A DNA stretch of 64,000 nucleotides. Source: Planctomycetota bacterium. GTDB taxonomy: Bacteria; Planctomycetota; Planctomycetia; Pirellulales; Pirellulaceae. Under the pieces are notes generated by a model that saw only the letters and a program-made list of their open reading frames with translations, was not told where the DNA came from and did no database searches. Shown here piece by piece: positions 15,349 to 24,004 of the stretch. How positions within the stretch are numbered: the stretch's first letter is position 1; every line of letters begins with the position of its first letter. The stretch lies in assembly GCA_014381825.1 (NCBI GenBank), contig JACNKX010000092.1, forward strand, positions 97,794-161,793. Direction: 5' to 3'. Made by a program: the position numbers and the translations under genes.

Positions 15349-15534
15349 ACTCGATCTGAATGGAAAAAACAGGACGAAAGGCAATGACTTAGTGTTGGCG
15401 AACTGAAAGGCGGAGTCAAGCATCCCGATTTCCGTGAGCTTTGCCACTTGTTTGCCGCGCGACAACCGTTCAGAATTAACGGCCCCGCACTCCAATCCAC
15501 CATAACCAGATCCCCAATAGATGGAGCCTGTTCG

Positions 15535-16524
15535 ATGCCCGTTTCTTTTCGTTGCTTGGCACTCGTGATGATGTTGTCCACTGCCGCCTTATTCGCTGCC
15601 GACCCGGACGCCGTTGTTTTCAACGATCCGGCCAAGGCCGGTGTCGATTATGAGCTACAGGGTGAGTATGCCGGCACTGTAAAGACTGACGAGGAGGAGT
15701 TGAAGATCGGCGTTCAGATCATCGCACTCGGCGACGGAAACTTCCGGTCGGTCGGTTTCATCGGCGGATTACCCGGTGACGGCTGGTCCCGTGGCGACAA
15801 GTCGCACACGTCTGAAGGCAAGTTGCAAGATGGACAACTTCGGTTTGCGGCGAAAGAAAAAAAGATCACTGCCCAGGTGAAGGACGGCTCGATCGTCGTT
15901 TATGGTGGTGACACGAAGGTCGCTGAGTTCACAAAGGTCCATCGTCAGAGTCCTACGCTGGGCGCCAAGCCGCCGCAAGGCGCGACCATTCTGTTTGACG
16001 GCAGTTCAACTGACGCTTGGGAAAGCGGCGAGATAATTGACGGTAAGTGGCTCGGCGCACAGAACGTGGCGACGAAAGAGAAGTTCGGCGACCATCAGTT
16101 GCATATCGAATTCCGTACGCCGTTCATGCCAGCTTCACGCGGGCAAGGTCGCGGTAACAGCGGCGTCTATCTCCAAAGTCGCTACGAAGTGCAGGTGCTG
16201 GATTCATTCGGGTTGGAAGGCAAGAATAACGAGTGTGGTGGGATCTACTCGATCGCCGAACCGATTGTAAATATGTGTTTCCCACCTCTGACTTGGCAGA
16301 CGTACGACGTCGATTTCACTGCCGCTCGCTACGACGACAGCGGCGAGAAGGTGAAGAACGCTCGCGCGACAGTTCGGCACAACGGAGTCGTGATTCACGA
16401 CGACTTGGAACTCACACACGGAACGCCTGGACGCCACGCGGAAGGACCCGAGCCAGACGGTTTGTTCTTGCAGAACCACGGCAACCCCGTGGTCTTTCAA
16501 AACGTCTGGATTGTGAAGAAGTAG
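15535..16524 (+). CDS. Secreted DUF1080 (3-keto-disaccharide hydrolase-like) protein
   Basis: 329 aa. Sec signal peptide (LALVMMLSTAALFAA). The C-terminal domain (about 150-329) is DUF1080, a concanavalin-like beta-sandwich related to GH16 and lately annotated as 3-keto-disaccharide hydrolase: 'ATILFDGSSTDAWES', 'GDHQLHIEFRTPFMP', 'GRGNSGVYLQSRYEVQVLDSFG', 'NPVVFQNVWIV'. The first 120 mature residues form a separate beta-rich domain of unknown role. The start ATG at 15535 has GGAG about nine bases upstream; the frame is open further 5' but without a signal peptide. Probably acts on carbohydrate in the periplasm or outside the cell. Divergent from the zinc-ribbon gene. Confidence 0.88.
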   Translation: MPVSFRCLALVMMLSTAALFAADPDAVVFNDPAKAGVDYELQGEYAGTVKTDEEELKIGVQIIALGDGNFRSVGFIGGLPGDGWSRGDKSHTSEGKLQDGQLRFAAKEKKITAQVKDGSIVVYGGDTKVAEFTKVHRQSPTLGAKPPQGATILFDGSSTDAWESGEIIDGKWLGAQNVATKEKFGDHQLHIEFRTPFMPASRGQGRGNSGVYLQSRYEVQVLDSFGLEGKNNECGGIYSIAEPIVNMCFPPLTWQTYDVDFTAARYDDSGEKVKNARATVRHNGVVIHDDLELTHGTPGRHAEGPEPDGLFLQNHGNPVVFQNVWIVKK

Positions 16525-16567: not shown

Positions 16568-18628
16568 TTACGCCGAAGCCTTCTGCAGCTTGAGCGGCAG
16601 CGAGAGCGTGAAGGTTGCTCCGGTCCGTGGCCCATCGCTTGCGACGGTCAATGATCCACCCATCTCTTTGGCCGAGAGTATCGCGCCGTGGAGCCCAAAG
16701 CCGTGACCATCTTTCTTCGTCGTGAAGCCGTGTCGAAAGATCTTCTCTATGTTCTCTGCAGCAATACCGATCCCATTATCGACAACATGCACCCTGATCC
16801 AGTGCTCTTCGCGAACTATTCGGAGATGAATCTCTCCGTTTCTCTCGCCTGCATCGCGAATCGCTTGCTTAGCGTTACCGATCAAGTTGATCAAAATTTG
16901 CATAACCTTTTGTTTGTCAAGACTCACCGGCGGCAAGCTGTCATACTCTCTCTGCACTTCTATGTGATGGCGGTCCAGTGAACCGACATTAATGCTCAAG
17001 GCGTCATCGACCAAGTCGTCGAGTGCGACGACTTGGTCCACACCCGACATCCCAGCATACGATTGCTGCGTCGACACGATATCCTTGATGTGATCGATGT
17101 TCTTTGTGAGTGAAGCCAGTTTTTCGATCAAAGTCGCCTGCTCGCCACTGAGAGCTTGGCCAGCCTCGATCAAGTAACTCGGCAAGTGCTTACCGCGCGG
17201 ATCGGTCGTGAGAAAAACGCCCAGATCATCCTTGTTTTGCGAGACAAGTTGGAGGACTCGATTCAAGTCTCCGACTTCCGAATTGCGGACGGTTTCGCTA
17301 AGCAATGCCGCGGCAACATTGACGCTATTCAATACATTTCCAACGTTGTGCAGCACGTTGTTGGCGACTTCGGCCATTCCAGCGGTTCGAGAAGCCTCGA
17401 CAAGTTGGTCGTTCATTTGGAGTAACTGCGTCTCGGCTTCTTTAATTGCAGTCAGATCGCGCACGAAGCCCGTGAACACTACTTGATCACGAAGAGCCGC
17501 TTCACAAATGGTAAGTTCCATCGGGAAGTGTGTACCGTCGAGACGAACGCCTTCAACTTCACGCCGTTCGCCTAGCAGCTTGCGATCTTCTGTTCCGATA
17601 TACTCCGTGAGGATTGCAGCGTCTTGAGTTCCCTCCGTAACTGCCATTAACGTTTGCACGCTTCGACCGATCAATGCATCGCCCTTGTAACCGAAGATAA
17701 CCTCGGCAGCGTGATTCGCCGATTGGATGATCAAGTCACCGTCGATTGTAAAGATGCCATCACTAGCAGATTCTACGATCGCGCGTACTCGATTCTCGTT
17801 GTATTCCAAACTTGCGTTTGCTTGTGACAATTCCTCGGTGCGATCGCGAACATGCCCTTCCAGATCCGCGTTTATTACGCGCAGGTCCTCGTGAGCCCGA
17901 TGCAACGCACCATCCGCGAATTCGATCCGGGCGAGCATCGCGTTAAATTCGTCATACAACTCGCCGATTTCGTCGTCGGAAGGCCGTTCCACACGAATCG
18001 AATAGTCACCATCGTCTTTCACGCGATGAATGGTCGCAGCTAGGGTTACGAGCGGATCTGAGATGAATCTTTGCAACCTCGATCCGATCAGTACGGCGAC
18101 CAACAACGAAGCCAAGGATACGCCCGCCGCGATTCCGATGTAGCGATAAATCTGCCCCTGAAGCTCGCCAACTGTAGCACGTAGAACAATCACGCCGAGT
18201 TGTTCTTCGGCGTCGACAACCGGAACCGAGACGGTCAGGAATCCGTCCTTCGAGAAAGAATGACCCATCGCCGTCGGGCACTCAGGCGCTCCTTCACTTG
18301 GATCGGTCGTGTGGTAACGCGCAAACACTTCGCCGTTTGTGTCGAAGAGGTATGCGCTTTCCACGTTGTGACGCTCGTGTAGTGAACGGAGAAGCCCTTC
18401 CGCTGAGCCCGGCTGCATGAACGCCAAGGCGGCGGTACTGTTCGATGCCAAAACCTGTGCGACGGACGCCAGTTCGTTGACCTTGTTCTTCCGCAGCAGC
18501 GAGATGTCATTGACAACGAAACCGATGCAGCTGAGCAGCAGCGCGATACCGCTGGACAAAGCCAGCAGCATTGTTAGCTTGCTCGTAATCGAAGGTCGCC
18601 GTCGTTTTCTTGTGACATTAAGGTTCAT
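16568..18628 (-). CDS. Membrane sensor histidine kinase: CHASE8-HAMP-PAS-HisKA-HATPase
   Basis: 686 aa. TM1 about 18-40; a periplasmic domain 45-155 that starts with the 'VAQVLASNSTAALAF' pattern of CHASE8; TM2 162-183; HAMP 183-240 and a coiled coil; PAS 280-395 (IVESASDGIFTIDGD, FTGFVRDLTAIKEAE); dimerisation helix with phospho-acceptor H427 (NNVLHNVGNVLNSV); then a long insert and an ATPase domain with N-box LINLIGNAKQAI, G1 DNGIGI and G2 HGFGLHG. No receiver domain is fused and no regulator gene is adjacent. It is the last gene of an operon: TonB receptor, YfiR, kinase, with a 6-nt gap from yfiR. CHASE8 is the input domain that YfiR controls in YfiN, so regulation of this kinase by the neighbouring YfiR is a strong inference. 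Confidence 0.9.
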   Translation of the reverse strand: MNLNVTRKRRRPSITSKLTMLLALSSGIALLLSCIGFVVNDISLLRKNKVNELASVAQVLASNSTAALAFMQPGSAEGLLRSLHERHNVESAYLFDTNGEVFARYHTTDPSEGAPECPTAMGHSFSKDGFLTVSVPVVDAEEQLGVIVLRATVGELQGQIYRYIGIAAGVSLASLLVAVLIGSRLQRFISDPLVTLAATIHRVKDDGDYSIRVERPSDDEIGELYDEFNAMLARIEFADGALHRAHEDLRVINADLEGHVRDRTEELSQANASLEYNENRVRAIVESASDGIFTIDGDLIIQSANHAAEVIFGYKGDALIGRSVQTLMAVTEGTQDAAILTEYIGTEDRKLLGERREVEGVRLDGTHFPMELTICEAALRDQVVFTGFVRDLTAIKEAETQLLQMNDQLVEASRTAGMAEVANNVLHNVGNVLNSVNVAAALLSETVRNSEVGDLNRVLQLVSQNKDDLGVFLTTDPRGKHLPSYLIEAGQALSGEQATLIEKLASLTKNIDHIKDIVSTQQSYAGMSGVDQVVALDDLVDDALSINVGSLDRHHIEVQREYDSLPPVSLDKQKVMQILINLIGNAKQAIRDAGERNGEIHLRIVREEHWIRVHVVDNGIGIAAENIEKIFRHGFTTKKDGHGFGLHGAILSAKEMGGSLTVASDGPRTGATFTLSLPLKLQKASA

Positions 18629-18634
18629 CGACCG

Positions 18635-19243
18635 CTACTCTTCTCCTTGATCGCGGACAACCGTCGCCAGTTTCAAGAGTAGCGCGTTGGCCTGCATTTT
18701 GCGTCGGTTCATCGCGTCGATATTGATCTCGATCTTGATCGATCCGTCTTCTAGCAACACAAAGTTTACCGTTGAGCCCTCCACGCCGTACCCCACGTTC
18801 TCGCCGACGACCAGTACCGGCTGGTTACGCGTCTGACGGATGATAGCCGCTCGAACATCGGGAGGAGTCGATGCAGCCACGAACAGCATGTGGCACGGCT
18901 TATAATCAGCCAGCGACTTGAAATACCTGACGGCAATCGGCCGCTTCTGGGCGAGTTTCGCCGCCGCAAGTTTATTCAGCGTCTGCCCAAAGGGATTTTC
19001 ACCGATAACACCGATAACGAACGCGCCTTGAGATGGCGGCAAAGCATCAGCAGGCCAAGATACGAACTTGGTGAAGTTATAGAGATAGGCAACCTTCAGG
19101 GTATGTTCCTTCGGTTGAGCCGCAAACGCCGCACTGGCCGAGAAGCAAACGGACAGGGTCGCAGCAAGTACGAGAATAGCTCGCACGACCCGCAGGTGGC
19201 GGTTCGTCCCAGCTCGCACTTGTTGTCGCTTCTGTTTGCTCAT
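18635..19243 (-). CDS. YfiR-family (DUF4154) periplasmic regulator
   Basis: 202 aa. A basic N-terminus and signal peptide (AILVLAATLSVCFSASAAFA) precede the DUF4154 domain: 'LKVAYLYNFTKFVSWP' near residue 49, 'FVIGVIGENPFG', 'CHMLFVAAS', 'PVLVVGEN', 'VNFVLLEDGSIKIEIN'. In Pseudomonas, YfiR is the periplasmic repressor of the diguanylate cyclase YfiN. Only one cysteine (C117) remains in the predicted mature protein, so the disulfide bridges described for the Pseudomonas protein cannot form within a monomer. It sits between a TonB receptor (38 nt upstream) and the CHASE8 kinase (6 nt downstream). Confidence 0.9.
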   Translation of the reverse strand: MSKQKRQQVRAGTNRHLRVVRAILVLAATLSVCFSASAAFAAQPKEHTLKVAYLYNFTKFVSWPADALPPSQGAFVIGVIGENPFGQTLNKLAAAKLAQKRPIAVRYFKSLADYKPCHMLFVAASTPPDVRAAIIRQTRNQPVLVVGENVGYGVEGSTVNFVLLEDGSIKIEINIDAMNRRKMQANALLLKLATVVRDQGEE

Positions 19244-19281
19244 CTTGGATGCGTTCTCAACTGCCCTAAAGAACTAAGGAC

Positions 19282-21375
19282 TCAATACGTCCACGTCGCA
19301 ACGCCGTAAACGCTACGTTCAACTTCTGTCCCGATATCGCCAGTGAACGGATCGCCTATAAACTCAGGGTGGTGATTGTCGAGCAAGTTGCGACCGACGA
19401 GGGATAGTTCAAGCTGGTCGGTCGCCTGCCACCCCAGTCGTGCATCCAGTTCCAGATAGCTTGGAATTGGTACGCCCTCGAAGCTGATTGCGTCGACGTA
19501 GCGCAACATCAAGTCGAACTGCACATCGCAACGAATATCCCCGGACAGCCACAGATAGGCTTGATTCTTCGGAGTGGCATCTGCATCGCGATTGGTGGAC
19601 GAATTCTGGAGTTCAACACGCTGGAAGCTGTAATTCGCGGACAGCCGCCAACAATCGTTAATCGCATAGTTACCTGTCAATTCGATCCCGTATGAGTGGC
19701 CGTCCGTGTTGTTGTTAAACGTCGAGACTCCTGGAGCCATAGGTACAGGTGCCGTCGCGATCAGATCGTTGTATTGGTTGAAATAGGTTGCGACATCCCA
19801 CGAAAACGACTCGCTCGGCTGAGACCGGTAACCCAACTCGTAGGCCAGCAAGTCCTCGGATTGAATATTTCGATTACCCAAGAGTAAATCACCTGACAGT
19901 AGCAGTATCCCGAGATCGTCAGCCGTCCGCGTCGGTCGTCGGATCGCTCGCGAGACGGCACCCCAGATTGCCTCGCGTTCATTGGGCTGCCAGACGATCC
20001 GACCGCTAGGTTGATATTCAAAGCCGGTGAACGAGTTCCCATCGAACTTCGAACCGACGGTAAAGTAGAGTTCGTCTTCAAGCAGTGTGATCTCGTCCTG
20101 AACGAATCCACTGACGACGCCCACGGCCCGCCGCAATGGCGATGAGAACAAGAACGGGGCGGTCTGCGCCAAGCGATCCTTGCTCGTCTGATATCCCGCT
20201 CCCCAAATGACGTTGTGATTTCGTCCCATCAGAAAACGATGCTGGAAGTCAAAGTCAGCCGTTTCGCGATCTTCCGAGAAAGTAAATGCTCGCCGGACGG
20301 TGCGGTCAAAGTAACTTTGGAAGGAGAAGCTGGAACCCTCACCTAACTGCCGAGTCCAACGCAACAATACATTTTGCCCGTTGACCCGATCATCGAAGTC
20401 GCTAACACCGACCCCAGGCACTACGGTAGGCGTCAGACTTGGGTGGGCCAAAGGAAGTACCTGGCGTGTGCCTACCGTGCCGTTGTAGAAGTCGCCTTGA
20501 AAGGTTACTTCGTCGCTGCAGGTGGGCGTCCAATCCATTCGAAAGCCGCCTCGCCCTTGTCGCCAATCGTCGCTGACTCTTCCCGGTAACGGGGGCAGTC
20601 CCGGGAACGTGCTAAGCGGTCCCGTGAAACCATTGTCGCGATCCGCGTACTTGCCATAGGCCCGCCAGCTCAATTCGTCATTCACGTGTCCGCCAACACG
20701 ACCGCTGGCAAAAGCGCGTTCTTCCTTACCGCCGCCGGCAGCAACGAGCGCACCCGTCGAATCACGACTGTGCTTTGTCAGAATGTTGATCACTCCGTTT
20801 ACCGCATTGGCTCCCCATACGGTCGCCCCCGGACCGCGTACAACCTCAATTCGCTCGACGTCTTCGAGCATCACGTCTTGAGCATCCCAATAAGTTCCGC
20901 CAAACAGGGGCGTGTAGACGACGCGGCCGTCGATTTGCACGAGCAGCTTGTTGGCATAGCGGCTGTTGAAACCGCGAATCGAGATTGCCCACTTGTTGGC
21001 GTCGATGCGAGCGACTTGCAGTCCCGGCACCATCCGCAAGACCTCTGGCAAGGTGCGAGCACCCGAACGACGAATCATGTCCTGGGTAACGACAAAGACA
21101 GCTGCTGGTGTCTTCCCGACAGTACTCTCCTGGCGAGACACGGTTGTTACGATTTGTTCGAGTGCCGGCGCGGAGACTCGCGTCTGCGTTAGCTCTTCAA
21201 GGCTCAACTCGAGAAGGCCCTCAAGTGAATCGATATCGGAATCGACATCATCGTCCGCGGCATTCACCGGGGGCGGATCTAAGGAATTCACCGTTCCGTC
21301 CTGTGCGAGACTTGCCGTCGCTACACATGTGGCAAGAAAGGTGGCAACTCCCCAGCGGCAAATGAATCCGTTCAT
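19282..21375 (-). CDS. TonB-dependent outer-membrane receptor
   Basis: 697 aa. Signal peptide, then an acidic segment with 'LLELSLEELTQTRVSAPA', a pre-plug sequence I know from TonB receptors found near YfiR genes. The plug domain (about 70-190) is clear: 'AVFVVTQDMIRRSGARTLPEVLRMVPG', 'WAISIRGFNSRYANKLLVQIDG', 'IEVVRGPGATVWGANAVNG'. The rest is a beta-barrel ending in 'VYGVATWTY' with a C-terminal aromatic residue. Ligand unknown; closest in feel to siderophore/vitamin receptors of the Fiu/CirA type. First gene of the receptor-YfiR-kinase operon. ATG at 21375 in an AAA-rich context with only a weak ribosome-binding site. Confidence 0.93.
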   Translation of the reverse strand: MNGFICRWGVATFLATCVATASLAQDGTVNSLDPPPVNAADDDVDSDIDSLEGLLELSLEELTQTRVSAPALEQIVTTVSRQESTVGKTPAAVFVVTQDMIRRSGARTLPEVLRMVPGLQVARIDANKWAISIRGFNSRYANKLLVQIDGRVVYTPLFGGTYWDAQDVMLEDVERIEVVRGPGATVWGANAVNGVINILTKHSRDSTGALVAAGGGKEERAFASGRVGGHVNDELSWRAYGKYADRDNGFTGPLSTFPGLPPLPGRVSDDWRQGRGGFRMDWTPTCSDEVTFQGDFYNGTVGTRQVLPLAHPSLTPTVVPGVGVSDFDDRVNGQNVLLRWTRQLGEGSSFSFQSYFDRTVRRAFTFSEDRETADFDFQHRFLMGRNHNVIWGAGYQTSKDRLAQTAPFLFSSPLRRAVGVVSGFVQDEITLLEDELYFTVGSKFDGNSFTGFEYQPSGRIVWQPNEREAIWGAVSRAIRRPTRTADDLGILLLSGDLLLGNRNIQSEDLLAYELGYRSQPSESFSWDVATYFNQYNDLIATAPVPMAPGVSTFNNNTDGHSYGIELTGNYAINDCWRLSANYSFQRVELQNSSTNRDADATPKNQAYLWLSGDIRCDVQFDLMLRYVDAISFEGVPIPSYLELDARLGWQATDQLELSLVGRNLLDNHHPEFIGDPFTGDIGTEVERSVYGVATWTY

Positions 21376-21688: not shown

Positions 21689-24004
21689 TTACCGCACTTG
21701 CTTGATACGGATGGCATTCAGGATCGTCGACGCGCCCTTGCTGGTCGCTTGGAACTGAAGGTCCAAGCGTCCGTCTTTAACCGCCACGCCTCGGATCGGA
21801 TAAACCATCGGCTTCGCAAAACCGCCAGAAACACGCAGTAGATCGAAGTTCGCAGCAACAACGCGCTGCTCGACAGCGATCGCAAACTGACGGCTAGTTG
21901 GCGTCGTGGACCAATACTCGCAGAAGTACAAAGTCACGTCATAAGTTCCATCCGGAACGACCGCTCGAAATGCTGTGACGCCTCGCAGCGCGGAGCCTTG
22001 AACTTTGTTGGCGATCAAGTCTTCCGTAACGCTTCGGCCCCCTTCATGCCCGAAAGTGTCGTTGTCGTAGAATTTTGAGGCCAGCCAACGTGTACCGTCC
22101 GGCGCTGTGAACTCGCCGCCACCGAGATTCACCGATAGTGAGTACAGCGATTGTTCAATGCCCGCCAGTTCTTCGGAACGCGCGGCCAGACTTGGATCAG
22201 GAGCTGACGTTGCGAGTACGCGAAATCGCCCCAAGCCTTCTCTTTGATTCAACTCGAGGTGAACGGTCGCGCCGCTGTCTCGCGAGACCGGATCTTCAAC
22301 AATCAGGATTGCAGCAGATGCTTTGCCACGACCCGATACCCGCCACAACGTCTTCTCATCGCCATCGATAATGCGGCGAACGTCGTTTCCTTCGCCATCC
22401 GCCGCCGAGGCGAATTTCACGGGCTCAACAACTTCCGGCGCGTCGCGGTTGGCCGTAAACGCAGTTATCTCGCCGAGAGTAAACCGTCCGCCGACGCCGC
22501 GCCCCGGTCCTGACGCGGGGAAACTCTCGTTCGGAATCGCCTCGACTTGAAGCGCGGTGATGGTCTCGATCTCAGTCTCGAACGTTAACCGATAGGTGTC
22601 GTCGCTGCGCGGAGAACCCGATGCCACGATTTGCCCACCTTCGACCAACGCTAACTTCGTTCCCGATGAAGCCTTCGCGGACATCGGAGTTAGCACGACA
22701 AACTCAGATTCGTGCCGCGGTGCAATACGATGCTGCACGGAGCAGCAAGCACCTGGAATCGGCTTCTCTTCCGTGCCGTCCGGCAACTTCCAACCGATGC
22801 TGAGATAATCCCGCCCCGTGCTTTCTTTGTGAAACGCTTCGAAGTAGTAAGCCTGATCTGCCAGCAGCTCGATCGCCGTCTTCGGTTCCACGCGGCGCTT
22901 ATTCTCAGGTGTCGCGTCGGTGCTGACGTAAAGCCATCCTTCTGCATTCGCACGAATCGAGAATTCGTAACTGCCGGACGTCGGCGGATGCAGATAACCG
23001 CGAAGCCGTTGCCCGTACTGATCGCCGAAGTCCTCAGAAGTCTCAAACCGATCGATCGTTTCTGTCTGATCCGGCTCTGGATGCTCCGCCACGTACAGGA
23101 TAAACTCCTCGACTTTGTTGCCGACTACTTCATTCCATACCTCTCGCAGCAGCCCGCCGCGACCAACCGCTTGAACCTCCTCGCGAGTCGCCGACAACTC
23201 GCCCCTGGACTTCAGGACTTTCGGCTCTTCTCCAGACTCTGGCGTTCCAACGGGAATAGGCTCGTCGCTAAGTTCTAGAATAGGTTCTTTCGCGCTTGGT
23301 TCCACGGCGCGCCCTGCCTTGACGCTTGATTGATCTGAGTCCGACTCTTTATCTTCGAATTCCGGCAGCAATGGCTCTGGCTCAGCCGGTTTTGGGATGA
23401 TTGTTTCAACGTCGGACGAGCGTGTATCGGGACTGAAGGCTTCGTCCTCTGTTGTACTTTGGGTGACTTCGATCGGTCTCCGCACTTCCGAAGTATTTGC
23501 GACGCGCTTCTCGCTGTCGGAATCGCCACGAAACATCAAAACGCCAAGACCGCCTGCCGCGATCAGTACGATCGCTAGTCCAGCGGCCATTAACGGTAAA
23601 GGCAGACGAGAAGGCTTGAGTCGGCGACGCACTTCCGTTCGATTCGTTGCCACAACGGGCGCTGCCTTTACCGCCGTCAGTGGCTTGGTCGTCTGTGCAG
23701 GAGTTTTGTTGGGAGTCCCCGTCCCGCCAGCGCGAAGCCCAGCATCATACGCCTGTTTGTGCGCGGCAATCAGCAAACATCGTTTGGCGGCCGATAACTC
23801 GTCGACGACGCGCCGAGCGTGTCTTCGCTGTTCGACGGTCGCGACATCACGAACGTACTTCAGCAAGCGATCCGCGGCACCTTCGATCGCATCGAGGTCG
23901 TCTTCAAACGGCTCAAGGCCAAGCAAGCGATAATAGTTGGCCGGCTGTTCGCGCGACGGTATGCCCAGCCACTTGTGATAAGGATCAAACCCATCCGACA
24001 TCAC
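21689..24004 (-). CDS. Planctomycetal multidomain membrane protein: J-like N-domain, TM, PA14, discoidin-like, malectin
   Basis: 771 aa. Residues 1-95 form the 'FDPYHKWLGIP...NYYRLLGL...AYDAGL' module, with a DnaJ-like helical pattern but no HPD motif. A single TM helix lies at 135-157, so the N-domain is cytoplasmic and the rest is outside. After an acidic linker come a PA14-like domain (about 285-430; 'GYLHPPTSGSYEFSIRANAEGWLYVS'), a region like F5/8 discoidin domains (about 480-600), and a malectin domain (615-771; 'VNLGGG', 'GTYDVTLYFCEYW', 'ILNAIRIKQV'). These bind carbohydrate, so the protein may sense or hold glycans and pass this to the cytoplasmic module. Start is the first of two adjacent ATGs. 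Role unproven. Confidence 0.8.
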   Translation of the reverse strand: MMSDGFDPYHKWLGIPSREQPANYYRLLGLEPFEDDLDAIEGAADRLLKYVRDVATVEQRRHARRVVDELSAAKRCLLIAAHKQAYDAGLRAGGTGTPNKTPAQTTKPLTAVKAAPVVATNRTEVRRRLKPSRLPLPLMAAGLAIVLIAAGGLGVLMFRGDSDSEKRVANTSEVRRPIEVTQSTTEDEAFSPDTRSSDVETIIPKPAEPEPLLPEFEDKESDSDQSSVKAGRAVEPSAKEPILELSDEPIPVGTPESGEEPKVLKSRGELSATREEVQAVGRGGLLREVWNEVVGNKVEEFILYVAEHPEPDQTETIDRFETSEDFGDQYGQRLRGYLHPPTSGSYEFSIRANAEGWLYVSTDATPENKRRVEPKTAIELLADQAYYFEAFHKESTGRDYLSIGWKLPDGTEEKPIPGACCSVQHRIAPRHESEFVVLTPMSAKASSGTKLALVEGGQIVASGSPRSDDTYRLTFETEIETITALQVEAIPNESFPASGPGRGVGGRFTLGEITAFTANRDAPEVVEPVKFASAADGEGNDVRRIIDGDEKTLWRVSGRGKASAAILIVEDPVSRDSGATVHLELNQREGLGRFRVLATSAPDPSLAARSEELAGIEQSLYSLSVNLGGGEFTAPDGTRWLASKFYDNDTFGHEGGRSVTEDLIANKVQGSALRGVTAFRAVVPDGTYDVTLYFCEYWSTTPTSRQFAIAVEQRVVAANFDLLRVSGGFAKPMVYPIRGVAVKDGRLDLQFQATSKGASTILNAIRIKQVR

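Follow-up and report, generated by a model that had tools for sequence, protein, structure and literature searches.

A recurrent gene trio of TonB-dependent receptor, YfiR-like protein and CHASE8 kinase, and a candidate YfiR-docking segment in the receptor

To our knowledge, few systems that signal receptor occupancy from the outer membrane to the cell interior are understood in detail, and most of these are of the FecA type, which consist of a transducer, an anti-sigma factor and a sigma factor. A 64,000-nucleotide stretch of a Planctomycetota genome (contig JACNKX010000092.1, positions 97,794 to 161,793; hereafter the window) raises the question of whether such a signal can take another route. 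Its minus strand encodes, in this order, a TonB-dependent receptor (TBDT), a YfiR-like periplasmic protein and a histidine kinase with a CHASE8 input domain, with gaps of only 38 and 6 nt between the genes. Does the receptor act on the kinase through YfiR? We show below that this gene order recurs in many phyla and that the receptors adjoining YfiR share a short N-terminal segment, from which we propose a relay across the envelope.

Conservation of the gene order and variety of outputs

We surveyed 392 genomes of the phylum, counting as neighbours those same-strand genes that lie no more than 1.5 kb from the domains. PF13689 (DUF4154, YfiR/HmsC-like) was present in 46 genomes. CHASE8 was found in at least 62 of the 392 and in at least 43 of the 46 YfiR genomes (Fisher 1e-38, ignoring phylogeny), and a receptor of the TOL_0244 type (E <= 1e-80) in at least 44 and at least 37, respectively (Fisher 3e-36, likewise ignoring phylogeny); the CHASE8 and receptor counts are lower bounds, a limited number of candidates having been scored per genome. 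The surroundings of 61 places were taken, in which the profile recognised 60 YfiR open reading frames (ORFs) and missed one (L096). CHASE8 lies downstream of 51 of these 60 ORFs, a TBDT upstream of 35, and both are present for 32.

A scan of named contigs, for which 20 aligned YfiR proteins served as the query, gave at least 454 relatives. Only the 80 best-scoring loci were retained, which makes this set lean towards YfiR proteins like that of the window, and at least two of them (L119 and L138) apparently duplicate records already sampled in the phylum (L049 and L061), since their gene layouts match. Among the 82 YfiR ORFs of these best-scoring loci, CHASE8 is found downstream of 67, a TBDT upstream of 58 and both around 50. 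The order is therefore conserved far beyond chance, and a TBDT in the position of YfiB, as proposed in a preliminary description of this DNA, is a recurrent arrangement. Neither outcome that would have overturned that description, a kinase sensor lacking CHASE8 or an order lost in related genomes, was obtained. The arrangement is not a planctomycete speciality: the full trio is found in metagenome-assembled genomes (MAGs) and genomes labelled Acidobacteria, Desulfobacterales, Nitrospirae, Verrucomicrobiales, Ignavibacteriae, KSB1, Bacteroidetes, Armatimonadota and others. Two Sphingobium plasmids (L250 and L252) carry it in the same order, annotated as a TonB-dependent receptor, a YfiR family or hypothetical protein, and an ATP-binding or hypothetical protein, and an ORF search revealed the same order on an Indioceanicola plasmid (L251). 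Closer to the window, a planctomycete MAG (L098) has all three genes in order, with identities of 62% for the receptor, 64% for YfiR and 77% for the kinase, and the window's own genome contains two more trios (L009 and L010) as well as two CHASE8 kinases apart from YfiR (L011 and L012).

Some incomplete trios lie at contig ends, some show other gene orders (L045, L053, L122, L145) and some are pairs with no receptor in view. In L182 (3570-6464) the order is reversed, a YfiR-like gene preceding a TOL_0244-type receptor; neither CHASE8, in the 10 kb seen, nor the receptor segment described below was found there, and this locus is possibly decayed or different. Two apparent fusions were rejected: a 748-aa ORF joining TBDT and YfiR (L054) crosses unknown bases, and an 854-aa ORF (L060), in which no receptor similarity was found upstream of YfiR, was taken as an ORF extension.

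The input cassette of TBDT, YfiR and CHASE8 is modular, being joined in relatives to kinases, GGDEF-EAL enzymes or a methyl-accepting chemotaxis protein (MCP) output. A kinase stands behind CHASE8 in most loci. A CHASE8-GGDEF-EAL protein follows TBDT and YfiR in Aromatoleum evansii (L116), Sphingobium nicotianae (L171) and on a Pseudoalteromonas plasmid (L310). Elsewhere the CHASE8 kinase is followed by a regulator with GGDEF-EAL (L101, L107, L109, L157), GGDEF (L128 and L133, the latter with no TBDT in view) or HD (L099) output; the receiver (REC) calls are those of Pfam, as our own hidden Markov model of the receiver domain drifted onto kinases and its tags were discarded. Since relatives carry GGDEF-EAL enzymes or REC-GGDEF(-EAL) and REC-HD regulators, the phosphorelay without cyclic di-GMP (c-di-GMP) envisaged in the preliminary description is not a general rule. 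The input side varies as well: L090 contains the TBDT-YfiR pair three times ahead of a single CHASE8 kinase, indicating that the two travel as a pair, and there are two receptors in L067, L081 and L087 and three in L141. CHASE8-HAMP-MCP chemotaxis receptors adjoin YfiR in L056 (8493-10535) and L081 (6203-7777), the one in L081 being placed behind two TonB receptors.

A segment shared by receptors that adjoin YfiR

The feature that is new here is an N-terminal segment of YfiR-linked TBDTs, located ahead of the plug domain, with the consensus DLTDMSLEDLMNVQV. We described it by a position-specific scoring matrix (PSSM) trained on 36 TBDTs of the named loci and tested on receptors outside them, the window receptor being scored as L214, with a threshold of at least 12. 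The segment was detected in 36 of 38 held-out YfiR-linked TBDTs and in none of the 7 same-family TBDTs that lie beside a PF04392 protein and have their N-terminus; among shuffled N-termini, 1 in 2320 reached the threshold. An eighth PF04392-linked row (L244) was left out as a barrel fragment without an N-terminus (score below 12). PF04392 was assigned by Pfam for L178, L179, L193 and L194, and these four served to build the profile used for the others; the PF04392 gene of L193 lies at a distance of 2.1 kb, and L249 has no PF04392 neighbour in the 1.5 kb seen. The plug of L209 was misplaced in the threshold test, its score being otherwise 29.1. When neither neighbour was in view, 21 of 26 receptors scored at least 12, and those that could be assigned are mostly from genomes with YfiR elsewhere. 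A single genome (G412) holds both kinds: the receptors of L228 and L239 are linked to YfiR and have the segment, and that of L245, linked to PF04392 by profile, lacks it.

The PF04392 loci (L178, L179, L181, L193, L194, L245, L247) form a parallel arrangement of a TOL_0244-type receptor and a PF04392 substrate-binding protein, with PF12974 also in some and a sensor kinase where seen (Pfam-checked in L178 and L194). LSLEDLM is absent from their receptors, three of which (L179, L181, L193) have EELxWLxxE or EEIxWLxxE instead.

The segment is also found outside the receptors. Of the 5666 ORFs of all loci, 136 score at least 16, that is, 135 TBDTs and one 363-aa protein of L045 (6763-7854), which is encoded directly 5' of YfiR in a locus where no receptor was found. 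This protein has no Pfam match and no plug domain. Many of its relatives bear PF13557, which we take to be an outer-membrane barrel family, and from this similarity it is probably a barrel unrelated to TBDTs. The segment is missing from all 39 relatives that were found in context and have no YfiR beside them in the stretch seen (29 from the phylum, 4 from plasmids and 6 from elsewhere, a few of them cut at the N-terminus); among the 40 L045-type proteins with known context, only the copy beside YfiR carries it. A plasmid search with two segment-bearing PF13557-type proteins returned 8 records for each, and the 4 examined showed neither segment nor YfiR. A genome search for such proteins gave 2 matches in 50 YfiR genomes and 4 in 200 further genomes, with no segment and no YfiR beside them.

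The three proteins of the window

The genes and domains of the unit are collected in Table 1. The three same-strand genes, their operon-like spacing and the CHASE8-HAMP-PAS build of the kinase were as first described, and so was H427, assigned by its motif because no HisKA model of Pfam matched the kinase. The unit looks like three genes, as the gene past the kinase (15448-16524) is on the opposite strand and, upstream, 313 nt lie between the receptor gene and the end of the next gene on its strand. The product of this upstream gene (21689-24004) has PA14 and malectin domains, and no sign was seen that the gene is part of the unit.

Table 1 The receptor, YfiR and kinase genes of the window and their features.
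Feature	Size or residues	Position in window	Strand	Basis or remark
TonB-dependent receptor, gene 1	697 aa	19282..21375	-	TOL_0244-type; Pfam Plug + TonB barrel; NF053590
Receptor N-terminal segment GLLELSLEELTQTRV, candidate for YfiR docking, ahead of plug	53-67	21175..21219	-	PSSM score 24.8
Receptor plug domain	88-195	20791..21114	-	Pfam
YfiR-like periplasmic protein, gene 2	202 aa	18635..19243	-	PF13689; one mature Cys, C117
CHASE8-HAMP-PAS-histidine kinase, gene 3	686 aa	16568..18628	-	Pfam; NF053592 HK_near_YfiR_like
Kinase CHASE8 periplasmic domain	46-149	18182..18493	-	PF17152, 5.6e-15
Kinase AALAF, counterpart of YfiN AAVVF	66-70	18419..18433	-	motif from available text of PMC3375315
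Kinase HAMP	185-236	17921..18076	-	Pfam, 2.9e-9
Kinase PAS	280-391	17456..17791	-	Pfam, 1.4e-12
Kinase H427, probable phospho-acceptor, in VLHNVGNVLNS	427	17348..17350	-	motif; same box in L098, L011
Kinase HATPase_c, C-terminal end	571-680	16589..16918	-	Pfam, 9.6e-20

The receptor matches the Pfam families Plug (4.3e-22) and TonB_dep_Rec_b-barrel (2e-29), with no Pfam match to the STN transducer domain. Pfam likewise detected no GGDEF domain in the kinase, which ends in PAS and HATPase_c, and no receiver domain in the kinase or in the examined ORFs beside it. The L011 kinase of the same genome (6425-8649), a CHASE8 kinase without YfiR whose core is 46% identical to that of the window kinase, is adjoined by a receiver-only protein (DDNRAIHQDF), which is a lead to the partner of the window kinase.

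The identities given earlier to YfiR and to the kinase sensor were borne out. The YfiR ORF matches PF13689 (2e-34), and its predicted structure aligns with solved YfiR chains (4zhu, 4yn7, 5eb1) with Foldseek template-modelling (TM) scores of 0.73-0.78 by target; the sensor matches PF17152. The available text of Malone et al. 2012 (PMC3375315) proposes that YfiR binds YfiN at AAVVF, with its exposed phenylalanine, and does so via a C-terminal hydrophobic region. The phenylalanine of the corresponding AALAF is kept in 96% of the 119 CHASE8 domains adjoining YfiR. In the YfiR proteins (n = 139), C-terminal residues are among the most conserved positions (N174 in 91%, L189 in 94%, L190 in 93%), and W63 and K50 of the N-terminal part are conserved too. 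Of the two cysteines of window YfiR, C33 falls within the signal-peptide region and C117 aligns with C110 of Pseudomonas YfiR; the mature protein thus has a single cysteine and lacks the C145-C152 pair, in agreement with the preliminary description.

A proposed relay and the alternatives

We consider it fairly probable that receptor, YfiR and CHASE8 kinase form one relay across the envelope in which the receptor takes the part of YfiB. YfiR would hold the CHASE8 domain via the AALAF surface and its own conserved C-terminal face, much as has been proposed for Pseudomonas YfiN. Loading of the receptor would expose the N-terminal segment GLLELSLEELTQTRV, which would then capture YfiR. We infer that the segment docks YfiR as YfiB does; according to the available part of the YfiB-YfiR structure paper, YfiB occupies an overlapping face of YfiR. 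Capture would free the CHASE8 domain and change the kinase activity, up or down, and the phosphate would pass to a response regulator encoded elsewhere.

A broader version of this proposal, which we put forward more tentatively as a possibility, is that at least two unrelated outer-membrane families share the detachable N-terminal docking segment DLTDMSLEDLMNVQV, which recruits YfiR, and that YfiR is thereby the standard coupling piece of a trans-envelope chassis found across many phyla. Any segment-bearing barrel could then drive any CHASE8 output, several receptors could serve one kinase, and a swap to a PF04392 adaptor would go with loss of the segment.

Several observations weigh against these proposals. 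AlphaFold2 did not dock YfiR on CHASE8 with confidence: the model, made from a read-through of the window with TAG as Q, had a pLDDT of 93 but a pTM of 0.53. Both docking runs gave good folds, but they modelled the partners as one concatenated chain, from 12 and 25 paired rows, and this is a weak test. The segment is unclear in three YfiR-linked TBDTs (L009, with a score of 7, from the window's own genome, L164 and L182), and the TBDTs of the two Sphingobium plasmids reach only 8-10. L098, the close relative of the window, sat among the PSSM training rows. In addition, the segment (score of at least 12) occurs in 75 of 120 listed relatives of the L045 protein (P0046-P0165), for which the gene context is that of L045 itself only; if the 74 others have no YfiR, the segment is not YfiR-specific.

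Other contrary points bear on two different explanations. YfiR and the kinase could form a switch by themselves, responding to redox state, envelope stress or a small YfiR ligand, with the TBDT being a co-regulated transporter that makes no contact with YfiR and whose uptake the kinase controls or reports on. This would account for the YfiR ORFs with no same-strand TBDT within 1.5 kb upstream (25 of 60 in the phylum and 24 of 82 in the named loci), and AlphaFold2 gave no receptor-YfiR contact: for the TBDT and YfiR of L137, no docking was obtained (pTM 0.81) and the segment had a pLDDT of about 46-55. A redox role has also been reported, in the literature available in part, for Pseudomonas YfiR and Yersinia HmsC. 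However, with one mature cysteine and no C145-C152 pair, window YfiR cannot use the same disulfide switch, and a bystander receptor fits poorly with a segment that accompanies YfiR in two unrelated protein families and with the repeated TBDT-YfiR pairs beside the one kinase of L090. We regard this explanation as unlikely.

Alternatively, LSLEDLM could be a general outer-membrane feature, such as a helix that serves TonB, folding or export, its absence from PF04392-linked receptors merely reflecting descent. A barrel-only tree of 82 receptors contains just three independent adaptor switches. The segment changes along with the adaptor in all three, but with a sign test p of 0.25 so few switches cannot reach significance, and common descent may explain the pattern; the segment is also present in TBDTs away from YfiR in YfiR-bearing genomes (L183, L185, L186, L188-L191, L195-L197), and the L187 TBDT scores 15.3 in a genome (G036, 69% complete) with no YfiR hit. 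This explanation nevertheless appears quite improbable, given that the plug-less L045 protein, for which TonB is an unlikely partner, bears the segment solely in the copy adjoining YfiR among relatives with known context, and that both receptor kinds coexist in G412.

The proposed relay resembles YfiBNR of Pseudomonas aeruginosa and HmsC-HmsD of Yersinia in combining a YfiR-fold periplasmic protein with a PAS/CHASE8-HAMP partner in the inner membrane, and YfiBNR also in its conserved contact motif and outer-membrane third partner. In contrast to YfiBNR, the window unit has a kinase rather than a GGDEF output, a TBDT rather than the OmpA-like outer-membrane lipoprotein YfiB, and a YfiR without the Pseudomonas disulfide pairs. 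The coupling of YfiR to a kinase is not new: the available text of PMC3375315 already pairs YfiR with YfiN-like proteins that carry a kinase, GGDEF-EAL or MCP output domain, in most cases without YfiB. The word TonB does not occur in that text, supplementary tables excepted, and the receptor partner and its segment are undescribed in it.

The association is known to annotators, since NCBIfam models all three proteins. Compared by names and scores, the window receptor (616.7 bits, 4.8e-185; cut-off 645) and YfiR (121.6 bits; cut-off 125) fall just below the cut-offs of NF053590 (TOL_0244 receptor) and NF053591 (TOL_0243 YfiR-like), whereas the kinase is just above that of NF053592 (197.2 bits; cut-off 194). 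In the available part of PMC6304351, TOL_0244 of Thalassolituus oleivorans, the namesake of the receptor family, is up sevenfold on the n-C28 alkane versus Tween 80 and 40.3% similar to OmpS of Alcanivorax dieselolei, which is reported to sense alkanes and set off a chemotaxis response; its account of TOL_0244 does not mention YfiR or a kinase. By analogy, these data would fit a signalling receptor, and they are silent on the ligand of the window receptor.

In a literature search that left most subscription papers outside, no title pointed to a receptor-YfiR-kinase unit, no paper contained CHASE8 together with 'TonB-dependent receptor', and none contained the letters of the segment or their spelling variants. 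Papers naming YfiR and a TonB-dependent term (PMC9611778, PMC8228696, PMC8959810) have other subjects, by title, and the available text of a review on c-di-GMP sensing (PMC8846402) names CHASE8 once and TonB never.

As in FecA-type cell-surface signalling, a TonB-dependent receptor would signal inward by periplasmic contact; unlike in the FecA type, no STN domain was found, and YfiR and kinase genes follow in place of those for sigma and anti-sigma factors. The unit would thus represent a widespread second design of receptor signalling, built on YfiR, in which receptor partners may be predicted from one short segment. Given at least 454 YfiR relatives, the receptors of unknown function that would gain a partner and a testable candidate binding site probably number in the hundreds. 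The results also suggest a substitute for YfiB beyond Pseudomonas-like bacteria and a way in which receptor occupancy may be linked, via one adaptor, to kinases, c-di-GMP enzymes and chemotaxis.

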